The translations under genes and the position numbers were made by a program. Shown one piece after another: positions 1 through 32,948 of a stretch of 64,000 bases of DNA. Position 1 is the stretch's first letter; each line of letters begins with the position of its first letter. The stretch comes from Verrucomicrobiota bacterium (GTDB lineage: Bacteria; Verrucomicrobiota; Verrucomicrobiia; Opitutales; UBA953), in contig JAPLTV010000032.1 in NCBI GenBank assembly GCA_026397955.1, positions 1-64,000 of the forward strand, read 5' to 3'. A model generated the notes under the pieces. That model did no database searches. It was not told the DNA's origin and was given only the letters and a program-made list of their open reading frames with translations.

Positions 1-713
<713 letters not shown>

Positions 714-28395: not shown

Positions 28396-28488
28396 AACAT
28401 CCCAAAAGGCCTAATTTGACCCTCTTTCACCCCGATTAGAGGCCTTTAAACCCCTGTTTTGAAGGGTTAACATCCCATAACATCCCAC
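28396..28488. repeat. Left arm-type repeats (AACATCCCA x3)
   Basis: AACATCCCA occurs at 28396-28404 and twice in tandem, ten bases apart, inside 28467-28488. The 22-bp block 28467-28488 recurs with a single base change at 32927-32948 near the right end, in the same orientation. Position 57-160 bases inside the core repeat fits arm-type integrase or excisionase binding sites. A hairpin with arms AAAGGCCT (28405 region and 28440 region) lies between them. Confidence 0.6.
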
Positions 28489-28829
28489 TCCCCGAGCGCG
28501 CGTAGATCGTAACGCCTGGCCTCGGGCAACTTCCCTAACCCCCCTATTATCAATAGGTTAAAAACGCGAAATGACCACGCGTAAAACCTTAGCGGTGACG
28601 GTCCACGAGGGAAAAGGGGGGTATTTGAAAAGAATACTCAAGGGGGGGGCTTCCCCTGCCCTGCCCTCCGACCCTGCCTATTGACACCCCTATTTCAGTC
28701 GCGGGAAGGGGTCGCCAAGGCGTTTTGATTGGTGGCACGACTCAACCCCACGCGACCAACTTCGGAGGGGGTTTGCTTTCCGCTTATCTCTTGGTGAGTC
28801 ACCCGGTGCGGATAATGTTTTCTACAATG

Positions 28830-28964
28830 AGAAACCCGCCCGTAACGATAGGATGCTTCATCCTTTTGCTCACTCCTTGCCTTTGGGGTTTAATAACCTA
28901 CCTGCCAGAACCTTGGGGCTTCATTGGCTCGCTCCTGATCGTGTTCGTTTTTGCGGTGGGTTGA
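28830..28964 (+). CDS. Possible small membrane protein (doubtful)
   Basis: Short reading frame; from the ATG at 28830 it gives about 44 residues with two hydrophobic segments (GCFILLLTPCLWGLI and FIGSLLIVFVFAVG). A longer start at 28728 adds residues without membrane character. It overlaps a minus-strand frame (28898-29128) by 67 bases; at most one of the two is likely to be real. No family match recognised. Confidence 0.3.
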   Translation, partial: RNPPVTIGCFILLLTPCLWGLITYLPEPWGFIGSLLIVFVFAVG

Positions 28965-29128
28965 TTTTCAGTTTTCGCTAACGCAAGAAACGACGCCAAG
29001 CGCACCGACGCGATCGGAGGAAGCGCACCGAGTCGGGGCAAGTCGTCAGGCGATACTATCACGCGACGGCCGGACACTAACTCGACGACGACCAAGCCGG
29101 AGAGAGATGCGCGCTTGCGGGGCTTCAT
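28898..29128 (-). CDS. Possible small basic protein (doubtful)
   Basis: 76 residues starting MKPRKRASLSGLVVVELVSG; the centre (VVVELVSGRRVIVSPDDLP) has the look of a small beta-rich domain, and codon use (TTG, GTC) resembles the other element genes. Overlaps the small membrane frame on the other strand. No family recognised. Confidence 0.3.
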   Translation of the reverse strand: MKPRKRASLSGLVVVELVSGRRVIVSPDDLPRLGALPPIASVRLASFLALAKTENQPTAKTNTIRSEPMKPQGSGR

Positions 29129-29315
29129 CTCGAAAGCGTCCGCGTAGGCCAGGCGTTGCGCAAGCCGTGGCCGATGGGGTGAACTACCCGAGGGGTTTAC
29201 TTGGTCTTTTTATTTAACACCGACCAAGTGAGGCCACCATTAATCGACCTAATATGCCCGGCCGACCGCGTGGCGCAACCCACTCCCTGTCCGTTTAGAT
29301 CGGTGCGTCGGTTGT

Positions 29316-29400
29316 CCTGTCTCTACCTCCCTGCCCTGTCTCTTGTATCGGGGTCGGTCTAACCTGTATCTCCCTCCCAAGACTGTCTCTTGTCTCGGGT
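29316..29400. repeat. Two imperfect 38-bp direct repeats
   Basis: Copies at 29316-29353 and 29363-29400, 47 bases apart, share CCTGT-x-TCT, CCTCCC, CTGTCTCTTGT and TCGGG in the same order (about 31 of 38 positions). Copy 2 contains CCAAGACTGTC (29377-29387), whose exact inverse GACAGTCTTGG stands at 29569-29579. Iteron-like or RNA structural; function unknown. Confidence 0.6.
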
Positions 29401-29419
29401 TGCTTGGTGTAGGGCGAGG

Positions 29420-29538
29420 CCGACCGAGCGTAAGCGGAGGGAGAGGCCGTAGCCCTTTTACTCTTACCCTATTACTAATCCCGTCCCCTCCCTCTCGCAT
29501 CCCTTACGGTCGCGCGGTCGGGGCGGTTATTAGTAAGT
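29420..29538. repeat. Overlapping inverted repeats in the element
   Basis: Arm 29420-29446 (CCGACCG, CGTAAG, GGAGGGAGAGG) is the imperfect inverse of 29486-29521 (CCTCCCTCTC, CTTACG, CGGTCGG). A second pair, TTACTAAT (29472-29479) and ATTAGTAA (29529-29536), interlocks with it, an arrangement that in RNA would form a pseudoknot. Lies between the 38-bp repeats and the excisionase-like gene. Confidence 0.5.
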
Positions 29539-29733
29539 TAAGATACTAGCACCGCGACAGTCATCCCCGACAGTCTTGGAGGGGTTGCTCGGGGCTTCCG
29601 CGATCGGTGCAAACGATTGCCGGCCGAGGGTTAGGCATAGGCGCGCGAGGAGGCCAGGCGTTACGCGGACAGGTTGCCAATGGTCGCAGTAGTAGCCCCC
29701 GAGTCTCTTGGGGTGCTTCCAATCCAAGCAACT

Positions 29734-29949
29734 ATGATGAACACAAGTATTCAACCCTCCCCCCTCCTCACCCGCGAACAGTTGGCGACCGCCCTCGGCA
29801 TTTGCCGGATGACTGTTAGCCGACTCACCAAGACCGGACGCATCCCCTTTGTGTCCGTCGGTCGTCGGGGCAAACGATACGACCGCGAGGCCGTCGTCGT
29901 CGCCCTGTCCGCTTACCTCAACGCTCCGGCCAAGCCGACCGCCCTATGA
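29734..29949 (+). CDS. Excisionase-like helix-turn-helix protein
   Basis: 71 residues from the ATG at 29734 (ATG at 29737 also possible; a start at 29674 adds no family sequence). Residues 12-50, LTREQLATALGICRMTVSRLTKTG then RIPFVSVGRRGKRYD, are the winged MerR-like HTH of the HTH_17/Xis family, which binds near attachment sites and favours excision. Its stop overlaps the start of the next gene (ATGA), so it is the first gene of a three-gene operon in the element. Confidence 0.8.
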   Translation: MMNTSIQPSPLLTREQLATALGICRMTVSRLTKTGRIPFVSVGRRGKRYDREAVVVALSAYLNAPAKPTAL

Positions 29950-30407
29950 AGTTGAGCGTCTTCAAAAACCTAACGCGAAGGGGGCATCTCGTCCGACAAA
30001 TCATAAAGGAGGAGTGGCCGACCCGCTTGGGAGATTGGCGCGCAGTCGAGGAGCGTTGCGATCTATTGGCCGACACCGCCCCGGAGGAAGCCGAGATAAG
30101 CGATTGGTTAGCGGACGCGGTTAAGGCGTTACTCTATCGCGAGGGGTTAATCGGTTACGACACCGACTCGGGCTTGTGGTATTGCTTGGTCGTCGCCCCG
30201 AAACAGGACTACCCGGAAGGTTGGGAGTCGGTCGCATTGATTGAGCGCAAGAAGCGACAGGCCGAGCGCGAGGCCTTGGGGCTGGACAACACTCCCCGCC
30301 CGAAGGCCAAGAGGAAGCCCAAGTCGGCCACGCCTCCGCAGTCTCCGGGCTATTGGATTAACCGACTCAACCCGCCCGGCTTCCCGCGTCGGCTTTCGTC
30401 AATTTAA
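29946..30407 (+). CDS. Element-encoded unknown protein (153 aa)
   Basis: Not recognised. The first 100 residues contain predicted helices with WADAVKALLYREGLIGYD-like WLADAVKALLYREG and then a Trp/Tyr pair (GLWYCLV); the last 50 are lysine- and proline-rich (PRPKAKRKPKSATPPQSPG) as in nucleic-acid-binding tails. It overlaps the excisionase-like gene by four bases, and its stop (TAA) overlaps the next start (TTTAATGA). The conserved overlaps support coding. Confidence 0.7.
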   Translation: MKLSVFKNLTRRGHLVRQIIKEEWPTRLGDWRAVEERCDLLADTAPEEAEISDWLADAVKALLYREGLIGYDTDSGLWYCLVVAPKQDYPEGWESVALIERKKRQAEREALGLDNTPRPKAKRKPKSATPPQSPGYWINRLNPPGFPRRLSSI

Positions 30408-31324
30408 TGAGCGACCCCAAGCCGACACCGCCTCCGCGCAACCGCAAGGCCAGGCGTAAGTCGTCGCCCGGACAAGTCGCCTTCCTTGAATACAAGGCCG
30501 TCCGCGATAAGGCCAAGGCCGAGCGCGAGGCAAAGCAACACCAAGACGCGTGGTATCTACACCACTTCCACCCGGAGAAGGCCAAGGCCAAGCGCGCGAA
30601 AGGGGTTAAGCATAACGCGGAGGCCTCGGCTTGGCGTAGGCAATCCTTCGTCGAGGCGTTTGCGGATTGGCCGTCGGTGCTTGCGGCCGAGGAGATGGGC
30701 TATCGGATACGCGAGTGGTTGCGCGATCGGTGCGTCCTTAATCCCAAGACCGGGCGCAGGAAGTGGAAGTGGTGCGGGTGCGAAAAGAACTTCGTTAAGA
30801 CAGAGGCCTCGGTGCGGAAGAAACTCACCGAGTTAAGAGTGTTCCGTTACAACTTCCGCGCGCGGTTGTGGTTCAAGTGCGGGTCGGTCGAGGAGGCCGA
30901 AGCAACGCAACGCCTGGCCGAGCAAGAGGCCGAGCGTCGTCGCCTTGCCCGAGAGGAGGCCGAGCGCGTCGAGCGAGAGAGGGTGAGCGCGCTTTGGGAA
31001 GCCGACCAAAAGAAGCGACAAGAGGCCGAGCGACTTAAAGCCGAGGCCGAGCAAGCCGAGCGTGATCGGTTGAGCCGTCCGGCCGTCGCGGGGTGGCACG
31101 ACTTCATCCCCGAGGAGTTAAAGGCGCAGGCCTTGGCTATGGTCAGAAGGACACCCTGCGCGCCCGGCATCGATTACAAAGCCCAATCACTCGACGATGC
31201 CAAGACAGGGCAGACAGAGCGTTGGGTGCGCGATAAGGACGGCTGGTTACGCCACCTACAATCCTTGCACGACCACGACAGAGAGATGCGTCGCGTAGCC
31301 GAGGCCGTCTTGGTCGCGGATTAG
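30407..31324 (+). CDS. Element-encoded unknown protein with charged coiled coil (305 aa)
   Basis: Not recognised. A proline- and arginine-rich N-terminus, a compact middle region with four cysteines (C109, C123, C125, C158) around WKWCGCEKNF that could bind a metal, then a Glu/Arg/Ala coiled coil (about 161-228) and a C-terminal part with WHDFIPEELKAQALAMV. Its size and basic, cysteine-bearing middle would suit a DNA-binding replication or packaging-interference protein, but nothing proves this. Converges with the integrase, 14 bases apart. Confidence 0.7.
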   Translation: MSDPKPTPPPRNRKARRKSSPGQVAFLEYKAVRDKAKAEREAKQHQDAWYLHHFHPEKAKAKRAKGVKHNAEASAWRRQSFVEAFADWPSVLAAEEMGYRIREWLRDRCVLNPKTGRRKWKWCGCEKNFVKTEASVRKKLTELRVFRYNFRARLWFKCGSVEEAEATQRLAEQEAERRRLAREEAERVERERVSALWEADQKKRQEAERLKAEAEQAERDRLSRPAVAGWHDFIPEELKAQALAMVRRTPCAPGIDYKAQSLDDAKTGQTERWVRDKDGWLRHLQSLHDHDREMRRVAEAVLVAD

Positions 31325-31338
31325 TCCGGCCTATGCGC

Positions 31339-32871
31339 TCACTTCTTCTTGGCCTTCTTTGGGTCAATCAGCCAATCGGGGAGAGTCTCTGCGGTCGTTA
31401 TCATCACCTCCGGCTCTTGGGCGATTGCCTCGCGCATCTCCTCCTCGGTCAAGGGTTCAGCGTCATAGGCCTCCTCATTCTCGACGGCCTCTTTCTTCGC
31501 CTTACGCGCTAACTTGGCCTCGGTCGCCTTGTGTCGGATGTATAATAGAATGTGGTCGGGCGACCAATTGGAGATGTAGTCGGGGTCGGTTGCGAACCAC
31601 TCCTTCGCCTCGGCCTCGGTCGTCAACTCTTGATAGGTGCGCTTCAAGATGGTTTTGCTGTTGCCCATCTCCTCGGCCGTCCGATCGGTGCTTCCTGTCA
31701 GTTGAACGCGATAGGACAGCGCGGAGGCGCGTAGGGCGTTGCTCGGCCAAGGGAAGTGCTTACGGACTGACTTCTTCAATCGGTTGAGCCGGACATTGAG
31801 ACGCGTCACGCGGTTAACATCACGCCTGGCCTCCTCCGCTTCCGACATATCCTTCACCGCGTCGTCGCGACAACCCTTGAAGATAAAGCCGTCGTCGCCT
31901 TCCTCCGGCCGATGCCTTTCGAGGTAACGCGCCACGGCCTTGGGGATCGGGGTCGAGCGTCCTTCGTCGGTCTTGGTGATGCCTCGATTGAGGAAAAGGG
32001 TCGTGCTGTCGTTTTTGAGATGCGTCCAGCGTAGGCGCGCCATCTCCGCGCAACGGACACCCGCGAAGGCGAGGAGGCATAGGGTCGGCCGGAACTCGTC
32101 GGGGCAGTCCGCGAGAATGACTTTGAGTTGGTCGGGCGTAAGGAGTCGGCCTTGGGAGGAGTCGTCGTCGGAGTGGCGTCGGAGTTTGAGATACTTAATC
32201 CGCGTGGCCGGGTGTTGAGCCGTCCGGCCTTCCTCGACGCACCAAGAGTAGAAGGCGACGACATAGGTTAGGAGGTTGTTCCGCGTCGTCGGGGCTAACC
32301 CCTTCCCTCCCTTGTATTGGTCGTCGAGCCACTTCTCTATCTCGTAGTCCTTCACCGAGCCGAGAGGCCTGTCCCCGAAACGCTTGGTGAACTTGCGGAG
32401 GTTAATCTCGAACTGTTGGAGGTAGCGAAGTCCTTTCCCTTCCTTACGCTTGGCCGATAGGCACTCGCGGACGGCCTGGCCTACCTTCTTGTCCGACTCG
32501 GCTAACCTCTCCTCTCGGATGTAAACGGCCACCGCGTCGGAGAGAGTCGGGGTCTTGCCGTCGCGTCCGACGAAGGCGCGCAACTTCTCCAAGCACTCCA
32601 AGGCCTCGCGCTTGATTGAGTCGGTCAAGATGAGCGCACCCGCCCCGAGCGTATCGGCCTCGGCTTGCTTCTCGGAGATGAAGCGTCGAGCCGTCGCCTC
32701 GTCGGGAAAGAAGGCGCGGTCGGTCTTGAACGCCCGGCACTCTCCCTCGGTCGGCTTCTTGGGATCGCGGGGACGCATCACGACCTTTCGATAATACACC
32801 GCCCACTTGCGCGTCGGCCTGTCCGGGTTGTCTTGGAGGAGGGGGGTGAGGAGTCGGGCTTGGCGTGCCAT
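31339..32871 (-). CDS. Tyrosine recombinase (integrase) of the element
   Basis: 510 residues, longer than most phage integrases (about 350-400). A SAM-like core-binding region (LSDAVAVYIREERLAES to about 215) precedes the catalytic domain. Catalytic residues: R273 in GVRCAEMARL, K300 in GITKTDEGR, R381 in SNALRASALS and Y413 in RTYQEL. The HxxR histidine is Asn378 (NALR) and the GHS histidine is Asn404 (GNS), a divergent but possibly active set. The C-terminal 95 residues are charged and extra. The gene starts 123 bases from the right core repeat, usual for such integrases. Confidence 0.92.
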   Translation of the reverse strand: MARQARLLTPLLQDNPDRPTRKWAVYYRKVVMRPRDPKKPTEGECRAFKTDRAFFPDEATARRFISEKQAEADTLGAGALILTDSIKREALECLEKLRAFVGRDGKTPTLSDAVAVYIREERLAESDKKVGQAVRECLSAKRKEGKGLRYLQQFEINLRKFTKRFGDRPLGSVKDYEIEKWLDDQYKGGKGLAPTTRNNLLTYVVAFYSWCVEEGRTAQHPATRIKYLKLRRHSDDDSSQGRLLTPDQLKVILADCPDEFRPTLCLLAFAGVRCAEMARLRWTHLKNDSTTLFLNRGITKTDEGRSTPIPKAVARYLERHRPEEGDDGFIFKGCRDDAVKDMSEAEEARRDVNRVTRLNVRLNRLKKSVRKHFPWPSNALRASALSYRVQLTGSTDRTAEEMGNSKTILKRTYQELTTEAEAKEWFATDPDYISNWSPDHILLYIRHKATEAKLARKAKKEAVENEEAYDAEPLTEEEMREAIAQEPEVMITTAETLPDWLIDPKKAKKK

Positions 32872-32926
32872 TGGTGGGAGGTTGCGGAAAGGGTCTTACC
32901 CTAACCCACCCCACCCGAGCGAGGTT

Positions 32927-32948
32927 TTAACATCCCATAAAATCCCAC
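32927..32948. repeat. Right arm-type repeat
   Basis: A 22-bp block matching 28467-28488 with one substitution, holding AACATCCCA and a variant AAATCCCA. It lies 46 bases inside the right core repeat, between the core and the integrase start, so it could bind the integrase N-terminal domain and also affect the integrase promoter. Confidence 0.6.

Follow-up and report, generated by a model that had tools for sequence, protein, structure and literature searches.

What is the role of some 300 bp of repeats and dyads that lie, free of any recognised gene, just ahead of the HTH_17 operon of a small integrated element? The window analyzed here is the full 64 kb stretch of DNA (contig C116), and the block in question occupies approximately 29286-29584, possibly reaching to 29672. 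We propose that the block acts in cis as a DNA site and most likely serves as the origin from which the excised element replicates, a reading of its repeats and of related elements to which we give a probability of about 0.5. The initial annotation had suggested a "possible origin or structured RNA". Of these two suggestions, the origin is supported by comparison with sister elements, which share the gene order and have a counterpart of the block in a word scan, and the RNA is unsupported.

The block is located inside a 4.5-kb integrated element (28467-32948) that encodes an integrase, an excisionase-like HTH_17 protein and two orphan genes. Its features are as follows.

28467-28488, unstranded: left att repeat TTAACATCCCATAACATCCCAC, 21/22 identity to the right att repeat
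28560-28660, unstranded: G-rich / GACCACG module near the att end, 30 nt at 83% to a module of the related element L118 (E ~0.01)
28898-29128, minus strand: small ORF encoding a VVVELxSGR protein, weak tblastn match to L118 11738-11878 (E 0.02)
29139-29333, minus strand: remnant of a small membrane-protein gene cassette that recurs across the genus, with matches in loci L050-L054 and L121
29734-29949, plus strand: HTH_17 / excisionase-like protein, with a longer ORF from TTG at 29674
29946-30407, plus strand: ORF153, an orphan without family in Pfam, PHROGs and NCBIfam
30407-31324, plus strand: ORF305, an orphan with a homologue only in genome G003 (73%)
31339-32871, minus strand: tyrosine integrase (phrog_1, 1.2e-30)
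32927-32948, unstranded: right att repeat, 22 bp, 21/22 identity to the left

The HTH_17 protein matches PF12728 (2.5e-8) and the excisionase family phrog_66 (6.8e-8), and it scores above the cut-off of TIGR01764. Neither ORF153 nor ORF305 had a family match at E 0.001 in the three databases, and a match to ORF305 is present in two of 141 relatives, namely this genome and G003. The AF2 model of ORF153 has a pLDDT of 50 and that of ORF305 a pLDDT of 69, the latter with a winged-helix-like order of elements at residues 91-157. Foldseek comparison of the ORF305 model with the PDB gave no significant match (best E 3.6), and many of the insignificant matches are winged-helix proteins. Both models are of low confidence; in our reading they have a winged-helix-like order of elements. 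Viral scans with the integrase, ORF305 and ORF153 returned no relatives, nor were relatives of ORF305 found in plasmids. The first 45 residues of the VVVELxSGR ORF are identical in L050. The adjoining cassette remnant has lost most of its ORF and retains the promoter and the 3' end. A second copy of the element occupies the same place in G003, with an integrase that is 93% identical. The contigs of this copy end at the equivalent of window position 29333 and resume at 30441, and only the first bases of the block (24 nt of the query) are present.

Several further observations concern the element and its surroundings. The word GGCCAGGCGT occurs six times in the element (28512, 29147, 29652, 30448, 30910, 31822) and nowhere else in the 64 kb; two of the copies flank the block, and GGCCAGGC is found at the corresponding places in the G003 copy. 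Repeated small membrane-protein cassettes are found around these elements throughout the genus; as judged by eye, they have a promoter-like stretch and a 3' hairpin, both conserved. At L053 (2554-3590), about 1 kb of such cassettes without an integrase gene sits at a tRNA-Gln gene and is flanked by a 32-bp duplication; this is an integrase-less mini-element. Far from the block, window positions 218-548 match the Rfam family 5_ureB_sRNA (89 bits, cut-off 40), a match that may reflect conserved urease coding sequence only.

The block itself is composed of two opposed sets of short repeats around a middle part that contains AT-rich patches and dyads.

29286-29399, plus strand: left repeat set of CTGTC/CTGTA units, including a 37-bp direct repeat
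29420-29446 with 29486-29521, unstranded: long imperfect dyad, from the single-strand DNA fold
29450-29484, unstranded: AT-rich patch 1, AT 0.67 over 30 nt from 29450
29472-29479 with 29529-29536, unstranded: dyad TTACTAAT / ATTAGTAA, from sequence and fold
29527-29551, unstranded: AT-rich patch 2, AT 0.76 over 25 nt, with 3 of 4458 windows of the element as high
29556-29584, minus strand: right repeat set, inverted, with GACAGTC at 29556 and 29569

The left units start at 29286, 29316, 29335, 29363 and 29382 (CTGTC or CTGTA, one base before), and a further GGACAG is found at 29667, to the right of the inverted set. Two pairs of these units make up the direct repeat (29316-29352 versus 29363-29399, 81% identity, 47 bp apart), which had been annotated as two repeats of 38 bp and is present, although with a length of 37 nt. 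CCAAGACTGTC at 29377-29387 pairs with GACAGTCTTGG at 29569-29579, and the pairing extends to 16 nt at 88% (29372-29387 with 29569-29584). The long dyad and the TTACTAAT/ATTAGTAA dyad interlock and are thus mutually exclusive. Both dyads and both AT-rich patches sit between the left and right repeat sets. The inverted pair, the interlocking pair and the long dyad of the initial annotation were all recovered to within 1-2 bases, and its remark that no gene explains the block agrees with our finding of no Pfam-recognised gene and of overlapping short ORFs that are unsupported.

How far these structures exceed chance differs among them. The score of the direct repeat was matched by none of 1000 dinucleotide shuffles and by 10 of 1159 sliding windows of the 64 kb, four of which are the block itself and six of which fall in two other places; no other part clearly rises above chance when taken by itself. 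The best ungapped inverted repeat was equalled by 148 of 1000 shuffles and by 270 of the 1159 windows, and the inverted repeats taken alone are not unusual. CTGTC/GACAG occurs seven times in the 400 bp at 29281-29680 against 0.40 expected (uncorrected P 2.4e-7). When 636 windows of 400 bp across the 64 kb were ranked by the best 5-mer of each, the block windows took the 20th and 22nd places, mostly behind low-complexity words.

Blastn of the element against plasmids and phages found no homologue, and among 55 genomes of the genus the block matched only itself at E 0.001. The search was run at E 10, and its remaining rows were short matches that, where inspected, lay mostly in unrelated sequence. 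Of 372 relatives, one, this genome, has the exact repeat motif. Two IMG/VR contigs with one motif copy each were attributed to chance, as about 20 exact matches are expected by a rough estimate and 17-19 nt align. An integron attC site, suspected by eye from GTCTAAC ... GTTAGGC, was dropped with its halves about 275 bp apart.

Related elements in the genus were reached via integrase searches and compared by organization as well as by sequence. Two of them, L118 and L121, have genes for an integrase, an HTH_17 protein and a primase-helicase; in each, a repeat-rich block lies immediately after the primase gene. L118 (5585-12366) is a second, apparently complete integrated element of this genome, with 57-bp att repeats at a tRNA-Asn gene. 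Its primase-helicase matches phrog_35358 (2.8e-45) and phrog_2597 (3e-42) as well as phage primases/helicases, and shares 39% identity with that of L121. Within about 300 bp after the primase stop, the L118 block has 11 copies of GGAACA/TGTTCC against 0.14 expected, on both sides of an AT-rich stretch. In L121 (genome G032), which likewise has 57-bp att repeats, the block right after the primase contains TTGTC in its left part and GACAA in its right part. An alignment of 246 columns gives 72% identity between this block and a stretch of G003 (L051) that adjoins the same kind of small-gene promoter as the window block; a profile search found no primase match in G003. L051 1641-3314 combines the L121-type block with small ORFs near a tRNA-Met gene. 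Near the att end of L118 (11938-12143), a module of 85 nt (GAAATGACCACG ... GGGGGGGCTTAAAAGATTCCTTTC) occurs twice at 89%, and is possibly a packaging or regulatory site.

A profile of both primases retrieved full-length relatives in two of 229 genomes (this one and G032), 12 more that are partial and distant, and four distant viral loci; in this genome it matches contig C74 only and not the window contig C116. Because the related integrase loci L119, L122 and L123 have no primase match and, in a k-mer scan, no comparable block, the pattern is based on the two sisters found in the genus that have a primase.

Read from the integrase end, the window element has the order integrase, operon, block, small-gene cassette, VVVELxSGR ORF, G-rich module and att. 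The order in L118 is integrase, HTH_17, ORF, primase, block, VVVELxSGR ORF, G-rich module twice and att, and that in L121 is integrase, HNH-type gene, HTH_17, ORF, primase, block, small-gene cassettes and att. L121 also carries the tail of the L118 ORF region (57 nt, 88%), and it shares a G-rich module with the copy of the window element in G003 (33 nt, 91%). The direct links between the window element and L118 are individually weak (ORF E 0.02, module E ~0.01). The operon of the window element is directed opposite to those of the sisters, and the block precedes the HTH_17 operon in the window and follows the primase in the sisters. Apart from the flanking promoter that they have in common, the window block shows no match in sequence to those of L121 and L051.

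An unsupervised scan for over-represented words in the non-coding DNA of the three elements, from att to att and with low-complexity words excluded, placed the top 5-mer of every element inside its block. These were CTGTC in the window (6 copies, P 2.2e-5), GAACA (TGTTC) in L118 (11, P 1.2e-11) and GACAA (TTGTC) in L121 (6, P 2.2e-5), all uncorrected. In the window, CTGTC switches orientation once, with four copies on the plus strand to the left and two on the minus strand to the right; TTGTC/GACAA of L121 also switches once, three then three. The L118 copies are in mixed orientation with no clean switch. With 6-mers, the block came first only in L118 and second in the window, where the top word was AATAGG at 28543-28694; in L121 it was ATTGGG, upstream of the HTH_17 gene. 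We estimate that the P values of the window and L121 repeats become marginal, about 0.05, after correction for k-mers and windows. The AT content of the middle over 30 nt is moderate in the window (0.67, versus 0.70 in L118 and 0.77 in L121). Taken by themselves, the statistics of the window block are marginal; the case for an origin therefore rests on the agreement in place and layout.

Replication from such an origin could proceed as follows. The integrase and the HTH_17 protein would excise the element as a circle. An initiator would bind the short repeats with the TGTC core, arranged as two opposed sets flanking the middle, where the AT-rich patches and interlocking dyads would melt; the replication machinery would then load. 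As the window element has no primase, one of the orphan proteins ORF153 and ORF305 would act as initiator, or else a factor supplied by the host or by another element. In a more specific and doubtful version, the origin layout of phage-inducible chromosomal islands (PICI) would be kept and the primase-helicase replaced by ORF153 and ORF305 with their winged-helix-like parts, one of them being a new kind of initiator.

Several observations count against an origin. The window element has no primase or known Rep, and the block precedes an oppositely directed HTH_17 operon. Marginal corrected P values, 6-mer tops that lie elsewhere, the 20th and 22nd rank and the moderate AT content also count against it, as do the mixed orientation in L118 and the missing sequence match to the L121 and L051 blocks.

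Next in order of likelihood, though unlikely, is that the block is an operator or enhancer region, in which the TGTC repeats are putative sites of the HTH_17 protein or ORF305 and control excision rather than replication. Its targets would be the operon from 29734 and a leftward promoter at about 29253-29310. The location of the block directly upstream of the HTH_17 gene fits such a role, and so does the motif copy at 29286, which falls within a promoter-upstream element common to the small-gene cassettes of the genus (matches in L051 and L050). In the sisters, however, the counterparts lie beyond the primase, at the far end, rather than ahead of the HTH_17 gene; a search of the block gave no sigma-70-like promoter, and the 300-bp spread of repeats with long dyads exceeds, in our judgement, a usual operator.

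We consider it still less probable that the block is debris, i.e., a scrambled junction without function that remained after small gene cassettes had been inserted and lost, with repeats that arose by local duplication. The left flank is a decayed cassette, the direct copies of AGGCCAGGCGTTRCGC that bracket the block at 29146 and 29651 could recombine, and no second full copy was found in the 55 genus genomes or, for the motif, in the 372 relatives. Against this, two sisters carry a block of this kind in the same position, and one of these blocks is conserved between G032 and G003.

Least probable of these is a structured RNA, either a regulatory leader or a small RNA, transcribed from the block. 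The long dyads and the fold z-scores (-2.4 on the plus and -2.8 on the minus strand with 200 shuffles each, -2.31/-2.30 in runs of 20 shuffles) would point to it. Both strands fold equally well, however, as expected of dyads in DNA and not of an RNA, and a z <= -2.4 on a strand was also seen in 4 of 99 control windows from the 64 kb; the fold energy taken alone is within chance. The block has no match to a described RNA family in Rfam and no sigma-70-type promoter-like or terminator-like site.

An origin thus remains the preferred reading, and it can be set beside three described systems. In the SCCmec cassettes, as presented in passages of PMC7581432, Cch2 binds a putative origin that adjoins a helicase gene and contains both inverted and direct repeats, and the binding is carried by the direct and not the inverted repeats. 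The window element resembles SCCmec as an integrated element with inverted and direct repeats, and differs in having no Cch-type helicase. In the PLE satellites of Vibrio cholerae, replication uses an initiator for which, according to the excerpt of PMC7145576, neither primase nor helicase activity is predicted, and an origin in the window element is therefore possible without a primase. The resemblance to PLE lies in the satellite type and in an initiator of this sort that is expected to bind non-coding repeats (same excerpt); no RepA_N protein was found in the window element, however, and the repeat sequence and gene content differ.

The third comparison is with PICI/SaPI. Two iteron sets flank an AT-rich region in PICI origins (excerpt of PMC6092414), and such iterons are bound by the Rep helicases of SaPI (passages of PMC7581432). 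The window element has the integrase, the excisionase and the direct att repeats of a PICI. Neither the profile search nor the family searches of ORF153 and ORF305 revealed a primase/rep replication module, and an origin immediately 3' of a rep gene, seen in L118 and L121, is absent from the window. We therefore do not file the window element as a PICI, from which it is set apart by the lack of primase or Rep and by a block that precedes the operon. It has, nevertheless, two opposed sets of short repeats, marginal in their statistics after correction, around a relatively AT-rich middle (AT peak 0.67-0.76) in a small integrase/excisionase element, and the sisters L118 and L121 have their block directly 3' of a primase-helicase. 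If the block is an origin, the PICI-like origin layout would extend to a Verrucomicrobia-type lineage, and the window element would point to a primase-less minimal replicon. Origins of uncharacterised integrated elements could then be sought by a rule, namely by scanning for opposed short repeats in the non-coding DNA from the operon to the integrase-distal end.
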